From NCBI RefSeq assembly GCF_900167375.1, contig NZ_FUWY01000001.1, positions 496,001-560,000 of the forward strand: DNA of 64,000 bases. Direction: 5' to 3'. Positions 7,850 through 60,770 of the stretch are shown one piece after another. The stretch comes from Anaerorhabdus furcosa (lineage in GTDB: Bacteria; Bacillota_I; Bacilli_A; Erysipelotrichales; Erysipelotrichaceae). The stretch's first letter is position 1. Each line of letters opens with the position of its first letter. Position numbers and translations under genes: made by a program. The notes below the pieces were generated by a model. The model ran no database searches, had not been told where the DNA came from, and saw only the letters and a list, made by a program, of their open reading frames with translations.

Positions 7850-7884
7850 TATATAATTAGTTAAATTTGGAAGGTGGTCATCTA

Positions 7885-8817
7885 ATGAAAATCGATCGAC
7901 TCATGAGTATTGTCTTCGTTCTCCTTGATAAAAAACGTATTAGTGCAAAAGAGTTGGCGGATATGTTTGAAGTTTCACTCCGTACAATATACCGTGATAT
8001 CGATGCCATTGATTTAGCTGGTGTTCCTATTTATTCAACTCCGGGTGTTGGTGGTGGCTTTGAAATTATGCCAAATTACAAAATAGATAAAAACGTTTTT
8101 TCACCCTCTGACCTTACTGCAATTCTTACTGGACTTTCTAGTCTTACCAACATGATAAAAGGCGATGAGTTAATGAACGCCCTTGCTAAAATTAAAAGCT
8201 TTATCCCCCCTGAAAGAGCAAAAGAAATTGAACTAAAAGTAAATCAAATTTATGTTGATTTAAACTCATGGAATGTTAATTCAAATATTCAACCCTACTT
8301 AGAAGATATCAAAACAGCTTTGCAGTCAAACAATCTAACTTCATTTGAATACATAGCTCATCATGGAAATATAACAAATCGTATTGTTGAACCCTATCAA
8401 TTAGTTTTGAAGAACAGTCATTGGTATCTCTATGGATACTGCTATCAAAGAAACGACTTTCGCATGTTCAAATTATCCCGCATGCTAAATCTACAAATTA
8501 AGAATGAATGCTTTATACGACGCGATTACCAAAAACCTCAATTAGAATTCTCTGAAGTTTTACAAACAATGCAAACAAAAATAAAAATTCGTATTCACAA
8601 ATGCATCTTAGATAGAGTTCTTGATTATTGTAGTTATGACAATTTCTCCCCAGATGGAGATGACTACTTTATTGTTGATTTTCCTTTTGTAGAAAATGAT
8701 TATCACTACGATATACTTTTAAGTTTTGCTGATAAATGCGAATGTTTGGAACCACCACATTTCCGTACAAATTTGAAGAGTAAACTATACGATACACTTT
8801 CTCTTTATAAAGATTAA
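7885..8817 (+). CDS. YafY-type HTH/WYL-domain transcriptional regulator
   Basis: A 310-residue regulator: an N-terminal winged helix-turn-helix (residues 1-60) with LADMFEVSLRTIYRDIDAID as the recognition region, the family's GVGGGF wing, and a C-terminal WYL domain (about 135-310) with the HWYLYGYCYQRNDFRMFKLSRM signature split across residues 175-200. WYL domains bind nucleotides or small ligands. The ATG at 7885 has GGAAGGTGG upstream. It probably controls the divergent hydrolase and itself through the repeat at 7826-7849. Confidence 0.9.
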   Translation: MKIDRLMSIVFVLLDKKRISAKELADMFEVSLRTIYRDIDAIDLAGVPIYSTPGVGGGFEIMPNYKIDKNVFSPSDLTAILTGLSSLTNMIKGDELMNALAKIKSFIPPERAKEIELKVNQIYVDLNSWNVNSNIQPYLEDIKTALQSNNLTSFEYIAHHGNITNRIVEPYQLVLKNSHWYLYGYCYQRNDFRMFKLSRMLNLQIKNECFIRRDYQKPQLEFSEVLQTMQTKIKIRIHKCILDRVLDYCSYDNFSPDGDDYFIVDFPFVENDYHYDILLSFADKCECLEPPHFRTNLKSKLYDTLSLYKD

Positions 8818-8850
8818 TATGAGTTTGCTCCTTTACATTTTTTTACAAAG

Positions 8851-8890
8851 AAAGACTTACAAATGAAGTACACTTCACCTGTAAGTCTTT
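8851..8890. terminator. Bidirectional terminator with extended stem
   Basis: Perfect 11-bp arms AAAGACTTACA and TGTAAGTCTTT enclose a second stem TGAAGT/ACTTCA. It separates the convergent WYL regulator and HAD phosphatase genes. Confidence 0.9.
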
Positions 8891-8897
8891 TTACATA

Positions 8898-9740
8898 TTA
8901 TTCTAAATTACTATCTTTAAATTCTTCAAAGTGTTTGAAACAATACTTCGCTACCCCCGATTCTTCATTTGAGGTAGTGATTGTATCCGCAATTAATTTT
9001 AATTCAATGCATGCATTTTCCATTGCTACTTTGATTCCCGCATTTTGAAGTAAGGTAACATCATTATTCGCATCTCCAAACGCAACTACATCTTTACAAT
9101 TCACATCAAGACGTTCACATAACCACTTTAGCGCATTGCCCTTTGATGCTTTTTTGTTCATAACTTCTATATTAGTTTTAAGTGATGACGATGTTGTTAG
9201 TTCAGAGAATTGCTTTATAATCTCAATTACTTTACGTTTGGTATCTTCATCTTTATAAAAAATATTCAAACGATCTATTTGTGGGCATGATCGTATAAAT
9301 TGAATCATGTCACTCTCTACAACTTTTCTACTTGATACTACATAATGATAAATTCCTTGATCTAAATTAAACTCATGAAGTCGATCCATTACACTTTTTT
9401 GTGTATATACTTCATTATCTGAAAAAATATCAAAAGTAATATCAAAATGGTTTAACTTGTTGTATAAGTCAATAACCAAGTTGTTCGAAAGTCCACAAAA
9501 GAATAATTCTTTTTTATCTTTAACACTATAGATAGATGAACCATTTCCACAGATTGCATACAAAACACTTGGGTGGTTAATAATTTCATGACTCATCCCA
9601 GACAAAAGTCTTCCTGATGCAGGTATAAATAAAATATTATTTTGATGACACTTTTCTAATAACTCATGATTTTCTTGAGATATTTTTTTATCTTCTGTAA
9701 GAAAAGTTCCATCTAAATCTGATACAATCATTTTCAACAT
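8898..9740 (-). CDS. Cof-type HAD-IIB phosphatase
   Basis: A 280-residue Cof/YidA-like HAD hydrolase. Motif I is VSDLDGTFL (nucleophile Asp8), the sugar-phosphatase cap spans the middle, and motif IV is VAFGDANNDVTLLQ near residues 213-225. These enzymes dephosphorylate sugar phosphates or nucleotides. The gene follows the IlvD/Edd-type dehydratase by a single base, so it is almost certainly the last gene of the PTS/KDPG operon. It could relieve build-up of a phosphorylated intermediate of that pathway; this is inference from position. Confidence 0.88.
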   Translation of the reverse strand: MLKMIVSDLDGTFLTEDKKISQENHELLEKCHQNNILFIPASGRLLSGMSHEIINHPSVLYAICGNGSSIYSVKDKKELFFCGLSNNLVIDLYNKLNHFDITFDIFSDNEVYTQKSVMDRLHEFNLDQGIYHYVVSSRKVVESDMIQFIRSCPQIDRLNIFYKDEDTKRKVIEIIKQFSELTTSSSLKTNIEVMNKKASKGNALKWLCERLDVNCKDVVAFGDANNDVTLLQNAGIKVAMENACIELKLIADTITTSNEESGVAKYCFKHFEEFKDSNLE

Positions 9741-9741
9741 A

Positions 9742-11376
9742 CTATTTAAGTATTGCTCCTTCTTTTGCAGAATTTACCAATTTTGCATAACGTCCAAGTA
9801 AACCTTTTTCTTGTTGATGGCTAAATGTTTTTTTCATCCTTATTCTATTTTGTATCTCTTCGTCTGTTAAATCAACAGAAATTTTATTTTGCGCCAAATC
9901 AACCTGTATTTTATCGCCATCTTCAATGATTGATATTGGACCATCTTCGGCAGCTTCAGGGCATAGATAGCCTATACTCAAACCACCAGAGGCACCTGAA
10001 AATCTACCATCGGTGATAATAGCTGTATTGGGAATAGCTTTCATAACTTCTGTAATACGATGAAGTTCTTTCATACCAGGACCACCTTTTGGCCCCTCAT
10101 ATCGAACGATTAATGCATCTCCTGATTGTATTAACTTCTTATTGAATGCTTCAAAACATTCTTCCTCAGAATTAAATACTTTTGCAACACCCTCAAATTG
10201 ATGCAATTCAGTAGGTACTGCACTTGTTTTTACCAATGCTCCCTCTGGTGCTAAGTTACCATATAAAACTTGGATTCCATTAGCAACTGATTTTTCATCA
10301 TCAACCGTCCTTATTATATTTCGATCCACATCTATTTTTTTACTCAATTCTTCTTTTATTGTCTTCCCTGTTACAGTTAGACAATCTGTATCTAAGAACT
10401 GTTCAACTGATTTCATAATTGCAGGTACTCCTCCTGCTTTGTACAAATCAACACAAGTTAAATTTCCATTTGGAACAATATTGCAAATAACTGGAACTCG
10501 ACTTGTTGTATCTGCAAAGTCTTTCCATTCAAGTTTTAAATTCAATTCATGTGCTAACGCTGGCAAATGAATCAGTGCATTCAAAGAGCCTCCAATTGCG
10601 CTCAAAACAGTTACTGCATTGTTTAGTGCATCTTGTGTCATGATTTGGGAAGGGGTAATGCCATTTCTTACAAGATTCATCAATGCAATCCCACTATCTC
10701 TAGCGCTAAAACGTCTCATACTTGTTGAACTTGGAATGAGTGATCCATAAGGTAGCATCATTCCTAACGCCTCACATAAGCAGCCCATTGTATTGGCAGT
10801 GCCTAAGAAAGGACAAATACCAGGCCCTGTATAATATTTTAATGTTCCTTCAATAACTTCTCGTTCGCTTATTTCACCTCGAAGAAATTTTTGTCTTAAT
10901 TCTTTTGATTCATTCGGTTTGATTTCTGCATAGCATGGACCTGATGTTACAAGTATACTTGGAAGATTTATTCGAGCTGCTGCATTGAGCATTGCAGGAA
11001 CAATCTTATCGCATGCTGCTAAATAGACAACACCATCAAACACACCTTCTCCAACAATCATTGCTTCACAAGAATCAGTAATAATTTCACGATGAGGAAG
11101 ACAATATCGCATTCCTGAATGTCCTTGAGCTATACCATCACACATTGCAATTGTATTGAACTCAACTGGTTCGCCACCTGCTTCTAAGATTCCTTTTTTT
11201 ACTTCTTCTGCTAATTTTCTTAGAGGTTCGTGTCCTGGACAAATTTCATTCCAACTATTCGCAATTGCTATTAATGGTTTCTCATTAAGAGCATCAATTG
11301 ATACTCCTGCAGCTGCTAGATGTGCTTTTGATATTGCTTTTTGAAATGGTTCTAATTTATCAATTGCTCTTTTCAT
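9742..11376 (-). CDS. IlvD/Edd-family dehydratase, probably sugar-acid specific
   Basis: A 544-residue iron-sulfur dehydratase. The three cluster cysteines are visible at Cys46 (NEICPGHE), Cys122 (AACDKIVPAM, with the carbamylated-lysine position Lys124) and Cys188 (GPGICPFLGTANTM); Asp80 (MCDGIAQGH) is a metal ligand. Sequence length fits dihydroxyacid dehydratase, but the third-cysteine motif contains GTAN as in sugar-acid dehydratases. There are no branched-chain biosynthesis genes nearby, and a KDPG aldolase and PTS lie in the same operon. I infer that it converts a phosphorylated or free aldonate into a 2-keto-3-deoxy acid. True IlvD activity cannot be excluded. Confidence 0.85.
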   Translation of the reverse strand: MKRAIDKLEPFQKAISKAHLAAAGVSIDALNEKPLIAIANSWNEICPGHEPLRKLAEEVKKGILEAGGEPVEFNTIAMCDGIAQGHSGMRYCLPHREIITDSCEAMIVGEGVFDGVVYLAACDKIVPAMLNAAARINLPSILVTSGPCYAEIKPNESKELRQKFLRGEISEREVIEGTLKYYTGPGICPFLGTANTMGCLCEALGMMLPYGSLIPSSTSMRRFSARDSGIALMNLVRNGITPSQIMTQDALNNAVTVLSAIGGSLNALIHLPALAHELNLKLEWKDFADTTSRVPVICNIVPNGNLTCVDLYKAGGVPAIMKSVEQFLDTDCLTVTGKTIKEELSKKIDVDRNIIRTVDDEKSVANGIQVLYGNLAPEGALVKTSAVPTELHQFEGVAKVFNSEEECFEAFNKKLIQSGDALIVRYEGPKGGPGMKELHRITEVMKAIPNTAIITDGRFSGASGGLSIGYLCPEAAEDGPISIIEDGDKIQVDLAQNKISVDLTDEEIQNRIRMKKTFSHQQEKGLLGRYAKLVNSAKEGAILK

Positions 11377-11400
11377 ATGTTCTCCTTTTTCAAATAGATA

Positions 11401-11420
11401 AAGAGGATTTTCACCCTCTT
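11401..11420 (-). terminator. Weak intra-operon hairpin before the dehydratase
   Basis: A 6-bp stem AAGAGG/CCTCTT with an 8-base loop and a T-rich tail lies between the EIIC stop and the dehydratase start. It may attenuate or trim the downstream part of the operon. Confidence 0.35.
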
Positions 11421-11424
11421 TTAA

Positions 11425-12777
11425 TTATTCTTCAGTTTGTGCTACTTTCTTCTTTTTACTCATAAAGAACCATACGATTCCAAAGACAAGTAGAAGTACT
11501 GGTATAGATATCATTGGGTTCTTTGTAAATGCTTCAAACACTAAGAAACTTTCAGTCAGTGCTGTTGCTGCAAACGAAGCGATACCACCATCAAATTGTA
11601 ATCCTACTGATGTAGCAAGAGCTGTAAGAACTGGTGATGTAATTGTTCCTGCTAATAAAACTGCTGCCATTGTAACTAATCCTATAATAATACTTCTAAA
11701 TAAATTACCTTTACAAATTGCAACAACAAGAGCAACACGGAATGTTAATACTGCAAGATCTGCAAATGGTAACACACGGTTTCCTGGAAGAATAACTGCT
11801 AATGCAATAACAAGTGGAGTTAAAATTAGAGAAGTTGTAATAACATTTTCATTACCAACAACAACTGCTGCATCTAAACCAATAAATAATTTTCTTCCTT
11901 TGAATCTTGATTGAGTGAATTTTTTTGCTGCTTCAGAAATCGGCATTAACCCTTCCATAAATAATGAAGTCATCTTTGGAATCAATACCATGACTGCTGC
12001 CATGTTAACACCTAAATTAAATGATTGAGCAAGATCATATTTTGCTAATAAACCAATCCCAACACCTAAGATAATACCTAGCATCATTGGTTCTCCAAAG
12101 AATCCTAAATATTTTTTAGCACTTGAAATAGAGAAATCAATTTTATTGATTACTGGAATTCTATCAATTAACCAGTTCATTGGTGCTGCAATAATAACTG
12201 ATGATACTGCTGATACTGTTGGCAAGGATACATCCGGTATCCCAAAATATTTTTCAACGAGTGGTTGTGTCCAGTCAGATAATTTAAATGTTACAACTGC
12301 CATTACTGCAGATGCTCCCATTGCTAAGAACACACTGTTCGTTGAGAAGTACACCATAATCCCAACAATTGCCATGTGGTGGTAATTCCAAATATCCACA
12401 TCCATTGTATCTGTTAACTTAAAAGTAAGCATAACAATGTTAATAAATAAAATTTCAAATACTAGAATAGCGATAATTGGTGATGCCCAAGTTACTGATG
12501 CAATTGCACCCCACCCAACATCAATAATATCTAGATTAATTCCAAAGTTTTGAACCATTGCTTGTGCCGCTGGTCCAATATTACTTTTTAATAAATTTAC
12601 AACTAAGTTAATACCTGCAAAACCAATTGCAATTGTTACCCCAGACTTAAATGCTTTTGAAAATTTTACACCAAATATTAATCCAATTAATGTGATGATT
12701 ATTGGTAGCATAACTAGTGATCCTGCATTTAAGATTGTTTGGAACCCTGCATAGATTATATCTAAAATTGCTTCCAT
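11425..12777 (-). CDS. PTS galactitol-type EIIC permease
   Basis: A 450-residue polytopic protein of the galactitol (GatC) PTS permease family, with about ten or more membrane segments. The cytoplasmic segment KFTQSRFKGRKLFIGLDAAVVVGNENVI is the part most like GatC proteins. It carries the sugar across the membrane and presents it to EIIB for phosphorylation. The gene is 22 bases downstream of EIIB in the order EIIA-EIIB-EIIC. The family includes galactitol, arabitol and sugar-acid transporters; the aldolase and dehydratase in the operon suggest a sugar acid rather than a polyol. Confidence 0.9.
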   Translation of the reverse strand: MEAILDIIYAGFQTILNAGSLVMLPIIITLIGLIFGVKFSKAFKSGVTIAIGFAGINLVVNLLKSNIGPAAQAMVQNFGINLDIIDVGWGAIASVTWASPIIAILVFEILFINIVMLTFKLTDTMDVDIWNYHHMAIVGIMVYFSTNSVFLAMGASAVMAVVTFKLSDWTQPLVEKYFGIPDVSLPTVSAVSSVIIAAPMNWLIDRIPVINKIDFSISSAKKYLGFFGEPMMLGIILGVGIGLLAKYDLAQSFNLGVNMAAVMVLIPKMTSLFMEGLMPISEAAKKFTQSRFKGRKLFIGLDAAVVVGNENVITTSLILTPLVIALAVILPGNRVLPFADLAVLTFRVALVVAICKGNLFRSIIIGLVTMAAVLLAGTITSPVLTALATSVGLQFDGGIASFAATALTESFLVFEAFTKNPMISIPVLLLVFGIVWFFMSKKKKVAQTEE

Positions 12778-43857: not shown

Positions 43858-43887
43858 AAATAAAAACGCCCTTAAACCTAAGGACGT
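43858..43887 (-). terminator. Terminator of the T-box leader
   Basis: Minus strand ACGTCCTTA/TAAGGGCGT stem followed by TTTTTATTTT, 20 bases before the metG start. It competes with the T-box antiterminator. Confidence 0.85.
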
Positions 43888-44084
43888 GATTTACGCGGTA
43901 CCACCTTAATTTATACTTTACAGTATACACTCAACTTCTTAACGCGAAGGCACGTCTCATTTTACTTATCAAATGATCGGCTCCTAGACCATGTTCTCTT
44001 GTTATTTCATGTATGTTTACACCAACCACATACTCTCTTTGCTTTATAATCAAGATACTCTTCTATTCTTAGCCTGTACCGATA
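43888..44084 (-). ncRNA. T-box riboswitch, Met specifier
   Basis: The leader shows the T-box core GGTGGTACCGCG (43905-43894), a Stem I with AGAGAG and GGTTGGTGTAAAC, and a specifier region GAACATGGTCTAGGAGC whose ATG (43992-43990) fits methionine. It ends in the terminator at 43858-43887 and controls metG. This is the expected class I, transcriptional T-box. Confidence 0.92.
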
Positions 44085-53956: not shown

Positions 53957-54775
53957 TTAATTTTGATGTATGTAATTATATATTTCGTTTTTCGACATTC
54001 CTGTTTGTTTAGCTACTGCTTTAATTGCATCTGATTTACTTAAACCTTGGCTAATAGCTTCTTCAACAAGAAGTGTAATTTCTCCCATATCAATTGCTGG
54101 TTTTAATTCTTCATTAAATCCTTCAACTACGACAACCATTTCTCCTTTAGCACCTTTTATTTCTTCAAGAACTTCACTACAGCAACCACGAATAAATTCT
54201 TCATGTTTCTTTGTTAGTTCTCGTGCCACACATACTTGACGATCACCCAGTGCTTCTAGAACACTTGCAAGCATTTTTTCAATTCGATGTGGTGCTTCAT
54301 AAAAAATCAATGTCATTGGATAGTGTTTATATAAATTTAAAGTTTTCACACTTTCTTTTTGGTTTGCTGGTAAAAATCCAATGAATGTAAATGGTTGTGT
54401 AATGAGCCCTGAAGCAACCAAGGCATTTAGCATTGCATTGCATCCTGAAAGTGGCACAACATTGTATCCAAGAGCAATTGCTTTGTTGACGATGACTTGT
54501 CCTGGATCACTAATCAATGGATACCCCGCATCAGAAATAACTGCAACATTTTTTCCTTGTTCTAATAATTGAAGTAATCCTTTTGATGATTCTTGTTCAT
54601 TAAAATTATGATATTGTACAAAGCGTGTATGGATATCAAAGTATTGCAATAACTTCATTGAATTTCTTGTATCTTCACATGCAATGACATCAACATTTTT
54701 TAAGACTTCAATGGCACGTGGTGTCATTTCATCAAGGTTACCAATTGGAGTGGGTACAATATATAGAGTTGGCAT
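53957..54775 (-). CDS. rsmI: 16S rRNA 2'-O-methyltransferase RsmI
   Basis: A 272-residue SAM-dependent methyltransferase of the RsmI family: LYIVPTPIGNLDEMTPRAIEVL and SGCNAMLNALVASGL are typical, with AGYPLISDPGQVIV at the cofactor site. It methylates the ribose of C1402 in 16S rRNA. The ATG at 54775 (GGGAA upstream) is preferred; a start at 54808 is possible. It is last in the tmk-holB-ricT-rsmI run, the conserved Firmicute order. Confidence 0.93.
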   Translation of the reverse strand: MPTLYIVPTPIGNLDEMTPRAIEVLKNVDVIACEDTRNSMKLLQYFDIHTRFVQYHNFNEQESSKGLLQLLEQGKNVAVISDAGYPLISDPGQVIVNKAIALGYNVVPLSGCNAMLNALVASGLITQPFTFIGFLPANQKESVKTLNLYKHYPMTLIFYEAPHRIEKMLASVLEALGDRQVCVARELTKKHEEFIRGCCSEVLEEIKGAKGEMVVVVEGFNEELKPAIDMGEITLLVEEAISQGLSKSDAIKAVAKQTGMSKNEIYNYIHQN

Positions 54776-54810
54776 TTCATTCCCAAAACTTTTTTGACGA
54801 TGAACCAAGG

Positions 54811-55692
54811 CTATTCAGCCTCCTTTTTAGGTTGAGGTGGTTCAACTTTTTTGACTTTTGCTTTATTCTTTAAATCATCTAAAGAAATAAATTGAACCGT
54901 TTCACGATTTTCAAGTTTAGCTTGTTGAGCTATAACATTCATCGAAGTAACTCGATATGTTTGCCCTTCATACTCCACTTGTGCATTTAGTTTTGGTAAT
55001 CCTTGTCTTAACTCTTTATATGCATCATCTTCAAATTTTAAACAACACATTAATTTCCCACATTGCCCTGATAACTTTTGAATATTTAGAGCTAGTAGTT
55101 GATTCTTTGCCATATTAATCGAAACAACATCAAATTCATCCATAAATCTTGAACAACATGTTTCCATGCCACATGGTCCAATGCCTCCAATAATTTTTGC
55201 TTTATCACGTGATCCTATTTGTCTAAGTTCAATACGACAATGTAATCCACTTGCAAGTTGTTTTAATAATTCTCTAAAGTCTACTCTTTCATCTGCAACA
55301 TAAACAAATAAAACCTTGCTTCTATCTAAAGTATATTCTGCACTTATTAAATTCATATCCAATTGAAGTCTTTCAATTTCTTTTTGACAATAAGTGTATG
55401 CTTCTTTTGCAAGTTCAATGTTTTCTGCATAACGTTGACGATCTTCAGCTGTTGCTTTATTTAATACTGGTTTTAGCGGTGTGCGTACTTCAACATCTTT
55501 AAGTTCGCGAAGTGGACTTACAACCTCTCCTAATTCAACACCCCTTGCAGTTTCAACCACAACATAATCACCATATTCAATTTCTTCATTGTTTGTTCCA
55601 AAAGAATAGCATTTGTTTGTATTTCTAAAGCGAATAGAAATAACATATTTATAACTCTCTTGTGTTGGAACTTGATTTATAGTTTCTTCCAT
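54811..55692 (-). CDS. ricT: RicT (YaaT), PSP1-domain protein
   Basis: A 293-residue PSP1-domain protein. The conserved GIGPCGMETCCSRFM and KLSGQCGKLMCCLKFEDDAYKEL cysteine motifs mark YaaT/RicT, which in Bacillus subtilis forms the Y-complex that steers RNase Y and carries Fe-S clusters. Start is at 55692, overlapping the holB stop by 1 base. Its usual partners RicA (YmcA) and RicF (YlbF) are not in the window. Confidence 0.93.
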   Translation of the reverse strand: MEETINQVPTQESYKYVISIRFRNTNKCYSFGTNNEEIEYGDYVVVETARGVELGEVVSPLRELKDVEVRTPLKPVLNKATAEDRQRYAENIELAKEAYTYCQKEIERLQLDMNLISAEYTLDRSKVLFVYVADERVDFRELLKQLASGLHCRIELRQIGSRDKAKIIGGIGPCGMETCCSRFMDEFDVVSINMAKNQLLALNIQKLSGQCGKLMCCLKFEDDAYKELRQGLPKLNAQVEYEGQTYRVTSMNVIAQQAKLENRETVQFISLDDLKNKAKVKKVEPPQPKKEAE

Positions 55693-56669
55693 TACATAAC
55701 CTCCTTTATCTCGTAAATCATTTGTTCGATAACTAATTGTAAATTATAACTACGATTGCATTTGTCTTTGCTCTCTAACAGAATTAACAAGATTTTTTCT
55801 ATTGCAATGTTTTTATTTGCAACTCGATTTACTTCTCTTTCAAACCATCCTGTTTGACTCTCTTTATTTGAAACAACATCTCTAAAGAATATAAGTAAAA
55901 TTTCTAAAAACATTTTTACAATATCTTTATCTTTGTCTTTATTTCCTAACACTTCTGTTTCAAACCAAACTAAGAAACGATGGATATCTACATCAAATAA
56001 GGAAACAAATCTCTCTGCAACAACCATGCCTGTTTGATATTCTTCTGTTTCACTCATTTCTTTCATATAATCAACATCTTTAACAATATGACTTAACACA
56101 TAACTATCCAAAGAGCTCAATCCTGAATCTAAACCACTTTCATAATAATGTTCTACATTCAAAGGCTTAAATGGAATTATTTGACATCTAGAAATAATCG
56201 TTGGCAATAATCGATCAATACTATCTACAATTAAAATTGCTTGGGTGTCTTGACCATTAGGTTCTTCTAAGAATTTCAATAAACTATTTAAAGCTTCTGT
56301 TGTTGCATTTTCAGCCATATCTAGAATATAGAATTTTTTTCCACTTTTCTCTAAGGCTGTTTTAGAAAATTGTTCTTGAAGGTGAAGTATACTATCTTTC
56401 TTAATCGTAGCATCGTTTCCATCAAGGTAGATTAAGTCTGCATATGTATTTTCAGTTATTCTTCTACACTCATCACACAGTTCACACGCAAAGCCATCTT
56501 CAGTATGTTCACAAATTAAGTTTTGAGCAAACCACAGTGCTGCTTCTTTTTTTGGTGTGCCTTTTACACCAGTAAATAAATAAGCATGGGCAAATTTTCT
56601 ATTTTTAATTGCATTGCTTAATGTTTGATATACAATGGGTTGCGTTTCTTGAAGTTTATCCCTGATCAT
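55692..56669 (-). CDS. holB: DNA polymerase III subunit delta'
   Basis: A 325-residue clamp-loader subunit. Conserved segments are [18 protein letters not shown] (loop without a normal Walker lysine), the zinc-finger [10 protein letters not shown] plus [29 protein letters not shown] and the SRC motif ([12 protein letters not shown]). It holds the clamp loader's architecture but is usually not an ATPase. The ATG at 56669 has GGAG 7 bases upstream and overlaps the tmk stop by 14 bases. Confidence 0.94.
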
Positions 56670-57288
56670 GGATAATCTCCAGAACACGGTTATATGCAGT
56701 ATCTACAACGGTTTCAACATCTTTTGATGCATCCACAATTAACATGCGCTCTTTAAATCTTTCAACTATTTGTTTATACCCTTCTTGCACATCATGATGA
56801 AATTGAATTGTTTCTTGATCCAAACGATCTTTAAATTCTCTATTTTCAATTCGTTTTAATCCATCTTCAGCACTTAAATCTAAGTAAATTGTTTTTACTG
56901 GCATGAACCCTTCAATTGCGAAGTTATTAATTGACCATATTTCATCGATTCCTAGATGTCTTCCGCACCCTTGATATGCAAGCGAGCTGTCCACAAAACG
57001 ATCACAAATAACTACTTTACCTTGCTCCAATGCTGGTTTTACTTTTTCCACAAGATGCTGTCTTCTACTTGCAGCATAAAGTAATGCTTCTGTTTTCGCA
57101 TCCATTGTTGTGTGCTTTGGATCCAAGATAATATCTCGAATTTTTTCTGCAATTTCAATACCACCAGGTTCCCTGGTATATATTGCATCAATCCCGTTCG
57201 CTATTAATTTATCATAAACACCTTTTGAAACAGTTGTTTTACCGCTTCCATCGGGTCCTTCAAATGTTATAAATATTCCTTTTTTCAT
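56656..57288 (-). CDS. tmk: Thymidylate kinase
   Basis: A 210-residue kinase: [16 protein letters not shown] is the P-loop, and the [12 protein letters not shown]-like [12 protein letters not shown] and [13 protein letters not shown] are substrate sites. It phosphorylates dTMP to dTDP. The ATG at 57288 follows GGTGAATTT; the alternative at 57312 lacks a ribosome site. It heads the operon. Confidence 0.95.
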
Positions 57289-57530
57289 AAATTCACCATC
57301 ATTTCTTATCAATTATATCATGGTTTTAATCTATCATAAAGAAGGCGATTTCACTGCATTATTTTATAATATGTGCACTTTTCATTGCTCATTTGGTCAA
57401 TATGTCATTAAAAACACATCCTCTGCCCCAAATACCGAGAAAAATAGTGTAAGATGTATATATATCTATTTTTTCACAAATACCTCGATTCCATTAGATG
57501 CGTTTTTATTTAGGGAGAAACTAATTTTAT

Positions 57531-59735
57531 ATGCATAAGTACAAAATTGTAAAAAATATACCTTTATTGTTACTAGTTTTAGTTAATTCGCTTTTAGTAT
57601 TAACTATTTTTTCCTTGATGGGATATGCACAAAATTTATTAAATTCTGATATTCAAACTAATTTAAATGAAATTGTTATACAAAATAAGGATGTCATAAA
57701 CAACAGTCTTAGTAACGAAGTTAACAAATTAAACCTTATTTCAAGTCAATTGTCTGAAAGATACTCACAAAAACAAATTCCTTTAGAACAGATATTTACG
57801 GAATTCGCGAATGATAAAAATGAATCTCAATTATTTATTGCATTACCAAATGGTATTGCCTACTTGCCGGATGGAGGATCGCTCGATATTAATGGAAGGA
57901 AGTATTTTCGTTTAGCTTTAGAGGGTCAAAGTAACATCTCTGATCGTTTGATATCTAGAGCAAACGGTTCAACTCTCTTTGTTATGAGTGCTCCAATTAC
58001 TAGCAACAATGAAATCATTGGTACAATTCAACGTCAATTTACTCTTGAGCAAATGTATGATCTATGTTCATCTTCCCTCTATACTGATAAGGGATATACT
58101 TACATTATAAATAGTGATGGGTATATCATTATAGGTTCACAAGATGAAGAATACACTCCTGAATCTGATAATTTATTTAGATTATTATTTATAGACAATC
58201 CTAATGAAACACGTATTTTACAAGAGCATATAAATACGAACACCACTGGATTTATGAAGGTTTCATATCGTGGCACAAAAATATATGCTTCTTACACACC
58301 GTTAGACAAAGTATATGATTGGTATCTTGTGTCTAGTGTAAAAACAAACGCTGTACTGCCCAATGTACAAACTGTGGTTAAAATATTCTACGTTGTACTC
58401 TTTGTTTTATTTATTGGATTCCTTTTGTCTTCATCTTATTTTTTCTATTCAAGATTAGAGCAAGAAAAGAAACTAAGAAAATTAGCTTTTATTGATCCTG
58501 TTACTGGACTTGATACATATACAAAATTCCAATTTGATTTACAAAGCATTCTCCAATCAAATCCAACTAAAAAATTCTTTATATTTACTTTTGATGTAGA
58601 TAACTTTAAGTATATAAATAATTATTATGGATACAACATTGGTGATAGTATTCTTACAATTATCCACAAACTATACTCTGAAACACTATTGTCAAATGAA
58701 CTATGTGCTCGTCTTTATAGTGATCACTTTGTCATGTTATTAGAAGACGCAAGTACACAACGATTAAATTCATTATTTAGTTCAGAGATTACAATTGATA
58801 ATATCATCGTTTATTTGTCTGCAGGTATTTACGAAATAACTGATTCAAATGAAAATGTAAACTTGATGGTAGACAAAGCAAACTTAGCTTCCAAAAATTC
58901 AAAAGGTACCCACCACAAGAAAGTGGAATTTTATAATGTTGAACTAGATAAGAAACTTATTCAAAATGAGCAAGCAAAACGTGCCATAGAAAAAGCAATT
59001 CAAGATGATGAAATTGTTCCTTTCTTCCAACCTAAAATAAATATTAATACAAATAAGATTGAAGGTGCTGAGGCTCTTGCGCGTTGGATTACCAAAGCAG
59101 GAATCATTATTCCGCCAAGTGATTTCATTCCTTTATCAGAAAAAACTGGTCTTATTCATGAAATTGATTTTATTATTTTAGAGAAAACGTTAAGGTTCTT
59201 AAGGAAGTGTCTTGATGATGGAATTAATTGCACTCCTATTTCTATCAACTTTTCTAGAATGCATCTTATGAGTCATGACTTCATTGTTCGATTAATAAGT
59301 AAAATCAATGAATACCAAATTCCTCCAAAACTAATTGAAATAGAATTAACAGAAACTGTAATATTTGATAATTATCAAATCATTGAAGATTTCATTAACC
59401 ATTTACATGAACATGGTTTACAGATTTCTATGGATGATTTTGGTAGTGGGTACTCTTCACTAAATATGTTGAAGGATATTGAAATAGATGTTATTAAATT
59501 TGATAGAGGTTTCTTGCAAGATACTCAGAAGAGTGAAAGACAAAAAGTAATTCTTTCAGCAATTACCAACATGGCTGTTGGTTTAGGTATCAAAGTTGTT
59601 GTTGAAGGTGTAGAAACTCAAGAAAATGTTAACTTAATGAAAGAATATGGTTGCACAATAGCTCAAGGTTATTATTATGCAAAGCCAATGCCAATCGATC
59701 AATTTGAAATCATATTTAAAGAAGGTAAACTATGA
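57531..59735 (+). CDS. Membrane sensor GGDEF/EAL protein, c-di-GMP phosphodiesterase
   Basis: A 734-residue protein. Residues 1-35 hold the first membrane helix, 36-285 an extracellular dCache-like sensor (LDINGRKYFRLALEG, YTYIINSDGYIIIGS), and about 288-310 the second helix. Residues 320-460 are a GGDEF domain in which the site reads YSDHF instead of GGDEF, so it is probably inactive. Residues 480-725 are an EAL domain: GAEALARW (EAL), SINFSRM, IELTETVI, DDFGSGYSS, VIKFDRGF and VEGVET keep the catalytic residues. So it should degrade c-di-GMP. Its stop overlaps the next start. Confidence 0.92.
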   Translation: MHKYKIVKNIPLLLLVLVNSLLVLTIFSLMGYAQNLLNSDIQTNLNEIVIQNKDVINNSLSNEVNKLNLISSQLSERYSQKQIPLEQIFTEFANDKNESQLFIALPNGIAYLPDGGSLDINGRKYFRLALEGQSNISDRLISRANGSTLFVMSAPITSNNEIIGTIQRQFTLEQMYDLCSSSLYTDKGYTYIINSDGYIIIGSQDEEYTPESDNLFRLLFIDNPNETRILQEHINTNTTGFMKVSYRGTKIYASYTPLDKVYDWYLVSSVKTNAVLPNVQTVVKIFYVVLFVLFIGFLLSSSYFFYSRLEQEKKLRKLAFIDPVTGLDTYTKFQFDLQSILQSNPTKKFFIFTFDVDNFKYINNYYGYNIGDSILTIIHKLYSETLLSNELCARLYSDHFVMLLEDASTQRLNSLFSSEITIDNIIVYLSAGIYEITDSNENVNLMVDKANLASKNSKGTHHKKVEFYNVELDKKLIQNEQAKRAIEKAIQDDEIVPFFQPKININTNKIEGAEALARWITKAGIIIPPSDFIPLSEKTGLIHEIDFIILEKTLRFLRKCLDDGINCTPISINFSRMHLMSHDFIVRLISKINEYQIPPKLIEIELTETVIFDNYQIIEDFINHLHEHGLQISMDDFGSGYSSLNMLKDIEIDVIKFDRGFLQDTQKSERQKVILSAITNMAVGLGIKVVVEGVETQENVNLMKEYGCTIAQGYYYAKPMPIDQFEIIFKEGKL

Positions 59736-60739
59736 AAATAAAATTTTTAAAATTAGTAATTGCCTTCGTATTTATCATTCCTTTATCAAGTTGTTCCACT
59801 AAACAAAAAGAGGTTTATATCGGTGTATCCTTTGGAGTTGGTGAAGCTATCCGTTGGGAAAAAGAAAAAGGATATATGGAAGAAGCAGCAAACAAGTTAG
59901 GCATTAAAATTGAAACTCGGCTAAATAAAACAGATACGCCATTAACTCAAACAGAAGATTGTATAGAAATGATTGATAGCGGAATTGATGTATTAATTCT
60001 TATACCAAGAGATGCGTTTAATGTTGATGAAATACTTGATTACGCAAAGAAGAAGAATGTTCCTGTTATTAGTTATGCTAGAACAATTATGAATAATCCA
60101 ATTGATTTGATTGTTGGCTATGATAGTAATCGTATTGGTCAATCAATGGGACAATATTTATCAGAAACAGCTTATCAAGGTGATTATATTTTATTAAGTG
60201 GTGATCCTAATGATAACAATGCACTTGATCTTTATAATGGTGCAATGCGATATCTTGAACCCATTAAAGATAATATAAACATTATCTTGGATACATCTGT
60301 TCCTAACTGGTCTGCAGATGAAGCAAAGACACTCGTTAGAGATGCAATTATAAGTAATCATGGTAATGTGGATGCAATCTTAGCACCAAATGATAAAATT
60401 GCTGGTGCCTGTGCAGAGGTAATTAAAGAGTTCAATATGGATCATCCTGTTATTATAACAGGTATGGATGCTGACCTTGATGCTATTAAAAGAATTGTAA
60501 ATGGTGAACAAAATATGACACTTAGTTTAGATTTAAAGGAACTTGCTAATGTGGCAATTCAGGAAGCCTATAATATAGCTACAGGAAATCCTACTACCGT
60601 TAATTCTGAAGTCGATACAGGTTATACAAAAGTAATTAATGCTCATCTAATTGCAGGAAAAGTAATTGTTAAAGAAAATATTGATAAGGAAATCATTGAA
60701 GCAGGAATTTATACACACGCTGAAGTTTATGGCAATTAA
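59732..60739 (+). CDS. XylF/RbsB-like sugar-binding lipoprotein, coupled to EAL sensor
   Basis: A 335-residue periplasmic-binding-type lipoprotein. Lipobox SSCS in VFIIPLSSCSTKQKE, then two Rossmann-like lobes with VLILIPRDAFNVDEI, YILLSGDPNDNNALDLYNGA, DAILAPNDKIAGACAEVIKE and ITGMDADLDAIKRIVNGEQNMTL, as in D-xylose/ribose/methyl-galactoside receptors. The usual ABC permease and ATPase are not next to it. The start overlaps the stop of the EAL sensor (ATGA), implying that it is a sensory partner of that protein. A terminator follows. Confidence 0.9.
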   Translation: MKIKFLKLVIAFVFIIPLSSCSTKQKEVYIGVSFGVGEAIRWEKEKGYMEEAANKLGIKIETRLNKTDTPLTQTEDCIEMIDSGIDVLILIPRDAFNVDEILDYAKKKNVPVISYARTIMNNPIDLIVGYDSNRIGQSMGQYLSETAYQGDYILLSGDPNDNNALDLYNGAMRYLEPIKDNINIILDTSVPNWSADEAKTLVRDAIISNHGNVDAILAPNDKIAGACAEVIKEFNMDHPVIITGMDADLDAIKRIVNGEQNMTLSLDLKELANVAIQEAYNIATGNPTTVNSEVDTGYTKVINAHLIAGKVIVKENIDKEIIEAGIYTHAEVYGN

Positions 60740-60742
60740 AAC

Positions 60743-60770
60743 AAAAGGCACCTAAAATTAGGCGCCTTTT
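60743..60770. terminator. Bidirectional terminator
   Basis: AAAAGGC-A-CCTAA pairs with TTAGG-C-GCCTTTT; it separates the convergent sugar-binding lipoprotein (+) and queT (-). Confidence 0.9.

Follow-up and report, generated by a model that had tools for sequence, protein, structure and literature searches.

Binding proteins are known to activate receptors of many types (PMC9602780, PMC11113362), and in the NspS-MbaA system, described in Vibrio cholerae and Sinorhizobium meliloti, the ligand-dependent docking of the binding protein sets the turnover of c-di-GMP (PMC8079147, PMC9993111), with the ligand-loaded form suppressing the phosphodiesterase activity (PMC8079147). In the ArtI-STM1987 system of Salmonella, the response of the dCache_1 c-di-GMP enzyme STM1987 needs its binding protein (PMC8846402), and in LuxP-LuxQ a protein of the ribose-binding type docks on a Cache-superfamily ectodomain, the periplasmic part of LuxQ having been placed with Cache (PMC4822843). 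A XylF-type protein is used for sensing in a Gram-positive, Clostridium beijerinckii, as a part of XylFII-LytS. In a 2022 review of c-di-GMP sensing, only SBP_bac_3 was given as studied within the binding-protein clan, and the sugar-type periplasmic domains were listed as possible sensors (PMC8846402). Such sensory inputs are little studied in gut Gram-positives.

The gene pair considered here lies in a stretch of 64,000 nucleotides from Anaerorhabdus furcosa (the window; G000:C2:496001-560000, GC 31.8%), a part of a low-GC genome of 2.4 Mb that is 95.7% complete. It probably resembles NspS-MbaA in its working, and is an orthologue neither of NspS-MbaA nor of XylFII-LytS, nor is its binding protein a transport XylF. 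As in NspS-MbaA, the binding-protein gene adjoins a membrane GGDEF-EAL gene; however, NspS is a periplasmic protein of the polyamine type encoded upstream of mbaA, whereas the window encodes a XylF-type lipoprotein downstream of the enzyme gene, in cells of the Gram-positive type, and the GGDEF signature is SGDEF in MbaA against YSDHF in the window protein. The dCache_1 c-di-GMP enzyme is shared with ArtI-STM1987, which differs in its ligand (arginine), its output (a diguanylate cyclase) and the family of its binding protein, while LuxP-LuxQ, alike in pairing a protein of this broad sugar-binding type with a Cache-superfamily ectodomain, differs in the histidine-kinase output and the AI-2 ligand. 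The partner of the lipoprotein is a dCache-GGDEF-EAL protein, unlike the LytS-type kinase of XylFII, and its sensor domain is a different one. With a probability of roughly 0.7, we regard the two genes of the window as one two-part receptor, in which the ligand-dependent docking of the lipoprotein on the dCache domain would set the activity of the EAL phosphodiesterase.

The first gene (57531..59735, forward strand) encodes a membrane receptor-phosphodiesterase of 734 aa, whose arrangement TM1-dCache-TM2-degenerate GGDEF-EAL follows from the open reading frame, the Pfam matches and hydropathy. The helices predicted by hydropathy at residues 12-30 (57564..57620) and 281-299 (58371..58427) flank the dCache_1 domain (residues 40-268; 57648..58334), supported by Pfam, an AlphaFold model and a structural match, so that the extracellular Cache-type sensor between two helices, proposed in the earlier note, was recovered as an extracytoplasmic domain; a third over-threshold hydrophobic segment, at 673-691, falls within the EAL domain. 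The degenerate GGDEF domain (residues 319-461; 58485..58913) was assigned by Pfam and by comparison of its signature with the orthologues, and the EAL phosphodiesterase domain (residues 484-719; 58980..59687) by Pfam and alignment to the EAL domain of MorA. The second gene (59732..60739, forward strand; open reading frame, Pfam and model) encodes a XylF-like binding lipoprotein of 335 aa with a Peripla_BP_4 match and, in its sequence, the lipobox LSSC at residues 18-21 (59783..59794), where Cys21 is aligned with a cysteine of the transporter homologues too.

The two genes meet in the overlap ATGA (59732..59735), and the junction reads ...GGTAAACT-ATGA-AAATAAAA, with the ATG at 59732 and the TGA at 59733-59735; the orthologous junctions are identical. 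Both the coordinates of the frames and the overlap of the EAL stop with the lipoprotein start had been given correctly before, while the description of the proteins as translationally fused was wrong, as the two genes are read in different frames, with a 4-nt overlap. A Shine-Dalgarno-like AGAAGG (59720..59725) lies within the last codons of the EAL gene, six bases 5' of the lipoprotein ATG, and comparable AAGGA stretches precede the overlap in both orthologues. Because bacterial operons often contain four-base overlaps of the ATGA kind, the overlap alone is weak evidence; translational coupling of the two genes is only likely. The opposite-strand cluster 5' of the pair (53957-57312) consists of tmk/holB/ricT/rsmI-type genes and presumably represents rsmI-ricT-holB-tmk, an order that is a Bacillota arrangement, while the genes for QueT, a NUDIX protein and DUF1836 follow on the 3' side. 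A terminator-like inverted repeat, near-symmetric and scored on the reverse strand, separates the pair from the convergent queT (60743..60770), and it is a weak one because two such repeats were found against 1.2 expected in shuffles. Elsewhere in the window a T-box leader (RF00230, 134.6 bits) occupies 43877-44079 of the reverse strand. For c-di-GMP riboswitches, the gathering score was reached neither in the window nor in the two orthologous loci (L026, L082) nor in the locus of a second pair of the same genome (L089).

The EAL domain matches Pfam with 229 bits (E 4.7e-68), and the E-A-L, N, ELTE, DDFG, K, EGVE and Q positions are in register with the EAL domain of MorA; hydrolysis of c-di-GMP is therefore expected, as in the known EAL enzymes. 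The GG[DE]EF signature is absent, being replaced by YSDHF in the window and by SGDHF and SSDHF in the orthologues, which bears out the degeneracy of this half pointed out earlier and makes the synthesis of c-di-GMP by this domain unlikely. An output of hydrolysis only, as the earlier note had it, is thus plausible by sequence, but not assured, since the SGDEF variant has been shown to be functional in MbaA, and predictions of activity from the signature can fail (PMC8079147); judged by the residues, the change of E to H in the window protein is harsher than the SGDEF of MbaA. It is also known from FimX that a degenerate GGDEF domain can sense GTP (PMC8846402). Of the 21 GGDEF-domain matches in the 2.4-Mb genome, six or more belong to full-length GGDEF-EAL proteins (726-773 aa).

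The ectodomain gave a dCache_1 (PF02743) match of 61.9 bits, with a cut-off of 45, and its AlphaFold model (pLDDT 86.7) is structurally closest to the ligand-binding domain of PctA (Z 20.6, 3.0 A over 230 residues); LuxQ was absent among the 50 structural matches listed, with which a kinship is still compatible. It is known that dCache domains can bind ligands directly, with no binding protein, which counts against a two-part receptor. Thus, the domain might sense a ligand of its own, with the lipoprotein concentrating, delivering or buffering the ligand or being an accessory that makes no contact with the receptor, and this agrees with the resemblance to the PctA-type dCache domains, which bind amino acids directly, and with the binding of AI-2 by dCache domains (PMC7584622). 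However, the five-residue PctA motif (R126, W128, Y144, D146, D173) is not evident in the three orthologues, where the corresponding segment is GR[KGS]YF, with the R aligned and the W replaced by Y, the other columns being uncertain by alignment. A binding-protein partner of their own accompanies several such proteins, a second one in the same genome among them, which points to contact, and direct sensing is thus considered rather unlikely. For the two-part receptor, the candidate interface residues, though not proof of it, are the group-specific invariant residues of the ectodomain, which are commonest in its first helix (Q34, L36, S39, N44, V49, K53, D54, V55, E63, N65), with others in 135-183. 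Also in favour of this receptor, the dCache domains of the three orthologues are 44-53% identical vs 55-63% for EAL, and in the paralogue comparisons the values are 15-28% vs 36-48%, although this contrast is not controlled against solitary orthologues that have diverged as far.

In the lipoprotein, the family assignment behind the earlier term "sugar-binding" (Peripla_BP_4, XylF-like) stands, while the ligand class follows from the family, and the scores against the xylF models, 174.8 bits for TIGR02634 (cut-off 389.55) and 184.8 bits for NF007680 (cut-off 504), are both below the thresholds. The model (pLDDT 88) has its best structural matches in 4ywh and E. coli XylF (3m9w, TM 0.86 by query), and by sequence XylF and ChvE, with E-values of 6e-46 to 8e-23, are far closer than 5xsd (7e-6) and 5xss (6e-5), which we take to be XylFII, so that XylFII-LytS, the precedent cited in the earlier note, is not the nearest relative. 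The fold and the nearest sequence family are those of the transport proteins E. coli XylF and ChvE; unlike these, the lipoprotein has no permease or ATPase partner, falls below the curated cut-offs and has three pocket-aligned residues replaced. Of the XylF positions compared, which are assumed to be the xylose contacts in the E. coli structure, R16, W17, R91, N137, W169, N196 and D222 are kept as R41, W42, R117, N163, W193, N220 and D246, while D90, Q221 and K242 are replaced by A116, M245 and L266 (the orthologues having Met for this Leu). These D, Q and K are invariant in the nine transporter homologues examined and in E. coli XylF, and the changes are thus specific to the group. If the positions are indeed xylose contacts, the ligand would therefore be carbohydrate-like but less polar than xylose, or different from it. 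Xylose as the ligand was considered and rejected for the low model scores, the changed pocket positions and the failure of Raoultibacter timonensis, a carrier of the pair, to use D-xylose; judging mainly from the residues, it is probably not the ligand. The xylose, ribose or galactose suggested in the earlier note are likewise disfavoured by the differing pocket positions and by the absence of D-xylose use in this species (PMC6562231).

The ORFs and Pfam matches of the flanking genes include no ABC permease or ATPase adjoining the pair, as had been claimed, whereas the homologues of about 30% identity in the order of the window that were checked for context (L002, L003, L072-L078) adjoin CUT2-type ATPase or permease genes. 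A lipoprotein placed behind the EAL gene for co-expression only could in principle be a spare binding protein for a CUT2-type importer, since two such ABC sets exist elsewhere in the genome, on C10 (with a MglB-like binding protein) and on C7. A complete, co-regulated ABC permease/ATPase pair elsewhere had been named in the earlier note as an argument against sensing; CUT2-type sets are there, but each has its own binding protein, and no copy of the lipoprotein stands beside a transporter in the scan of the window's order. Moreover, Raoultibacter has the pair but no PF02653 (CUT2-type) permease at all among 20 candidates scored, with the control genomes positive, and its genome contains no Peripla_BP_4 match other than the lipoprotein, which makes a transport role improbable. 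Since one carrier is free of the matching sugar transporter, the lipoprotein is most likely a detachable sensor of the enzyme and not a part of a sugar pump. Raoultibacter timonensis has been described as motile and D-xylose-negative (PMC6562231). Two genes with one overlap and a natural carrier that has no CUT2-type transporter offer a compact system for testing whether a sugar-type receptor governs a c-di-GMP phosphodiesterase, and the annotation of XylF-like lipoproteins as parts of a xylose importer is not always justified.

In a scan of GTDB contigs, one close relative of the lipoprotein was found, in R. timonensis (Actinomycetota, Eggerthellales; L026), with 54-56% identity, where a dCache-GGDEF-EAL gene stands directly upstream, its product being 45% identical to that of the window, and again with an ATGA overlap. 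One further carrier, also with the ATGA overlap, was found among the 395 genomes of the Raoultibacter order (G910, L082); a fused lipoprotein-EAL open frame of 1107 aa, seen in this genome, was rejected as an artefact of a GC-rich frame 5' of the lipoprotein start, with the EAL in another frame. EAL proteins of more than 50% identity together with the lipoprotein occur only in these two of the 395 genomes, and the next tier of EAL relatives in that order reaches at most 35% identity over full length. No other close copy of the lipoprotein was detected in the order of the window (315 genomes) or in a 392-genome sample of the phylum, and none in viral contigs, while its plasmid matches are all under 60% identity. 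The order EAL to lipoprotein is the same in all three pairs, while their gene neighbourhoods are unrelated, and the three lipoproteins and the three EAL proteins each form one clade in the trees (support 1.000 in both cases). Codon usage is fully adapted to the hosts, with GC3 of 17-21% in the window and 79-93% in the two other carriers, and, as the flanks differ, we infer that the pair was transferred, or else retained, as one unit in the distant past.

Four-base overlaps are frequent and the pair is rare, as would be expected of functionally unrelated genes that share an operon by chance, but the retention of the order, the overlap and both proteins between two phyla, despite such differences in GC3 and in the flanks, makes this highly improbable. 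The conservation of ATGA in three genomes of two phyla exceeds chance, and this conservation, which the earlier note had proposed to check, together with the co-inheritance of both proteins and the carrier that has no CUT2-type permease, favours the sensing pair over a transporter piece, as had been suggested. The evidence for the two-part receptor is limited by the number of genomes carrying the XylF-like pair, only three.

In the two-part receptor, the lipoprotein, tethered at the outer face of the membrane, would capture a small, probably carbohydrate-like molecule, and its opening or closing around the ligand would alter its docking on the dCache ectodomain. By way of the second transmembrane helix and the inactive GGDEF domain, the signal would then reach the EAL domain and set the hydrolysis of c-di-GMP and, through it, surface or motility behaviour. 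For each of these steps there is a precedent in the systems named above. By analogy with NspS-MbaA, we lean slightly towards a ligand-loaded lipoprotein that suppresses the phosphodiesterase activity.

A second pair was found in the same genome (L089, on C4; 7876-12065), in which a dCache-GGDEF-EAL gene (9753-12065, reverse strand) overlaps a lipoprotein gene (7876-9756, reverse strand) by ATGA; the dCache match is there below the Pfam cut-off, and the lipoprotein, SBP_bac_1/8 with a 5_nucleotid_C domain, is of a different binding-protein family. In two genomes of the Coriobacteriia (L165, L166) the relatives of this lipoprotein stand next to dCache-GGDEF-EAL proteins. Such relatives occur in many genomes of the order of the window, where all ten of their neighbours scanned (L150, L152-L156, L159, L160, L162, L163) are hybrid histidine kinases, five of the ten with a sub-cut-off dCache_1 match. 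The EAL770 matches beside the SBP_bac_1/5NT lipoproteins first resembled c-di-GMP enzymes, and by Pfam they are these hybrid kinases in the window's order. The Cache-type ectodomain is the receptor element shared across the pairs and hence the likely place of docking. Several GGDEF-EAL paralogues (L088, L090, L092 and L089 2945-5164) have no binding-protein partner, and pairing is therefore a property of some members only.

The pair may be one instance of a general and largely undescribed module of gut Gram-positives, in which a surface lipoprotein of any of several binding-protein families would serve a dCache membrane receptor whose output, a c-di-GMP phosphodiesterase or a hybrid kinase, could be exchanged. 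The XylF-like receptor would then have left transport, with its pocket changed for a less polar molecule other than xylose, which may be a signal within the community rather than a nutrient; this broader proposal is tentative and somewhat doubtful.

A few other observations concern the same protein families. A plain SBP_bac_1 gene stands immediately upstream of a GGDEF-EAL gene in two Coriobacteriia loci, L167 (2111-5748, with a 4-nt overlap) and L133. In the genome of the window, a SBP_bac_3-like region and GGDEF-EAL are joined in a single chain (L091, 15550-17769). Finally, a protein of 840 aa (L101, 1746-4268) matches EAL in its C-terminal part by tblastn, and its N-terminus appears FIST-like by eye only.
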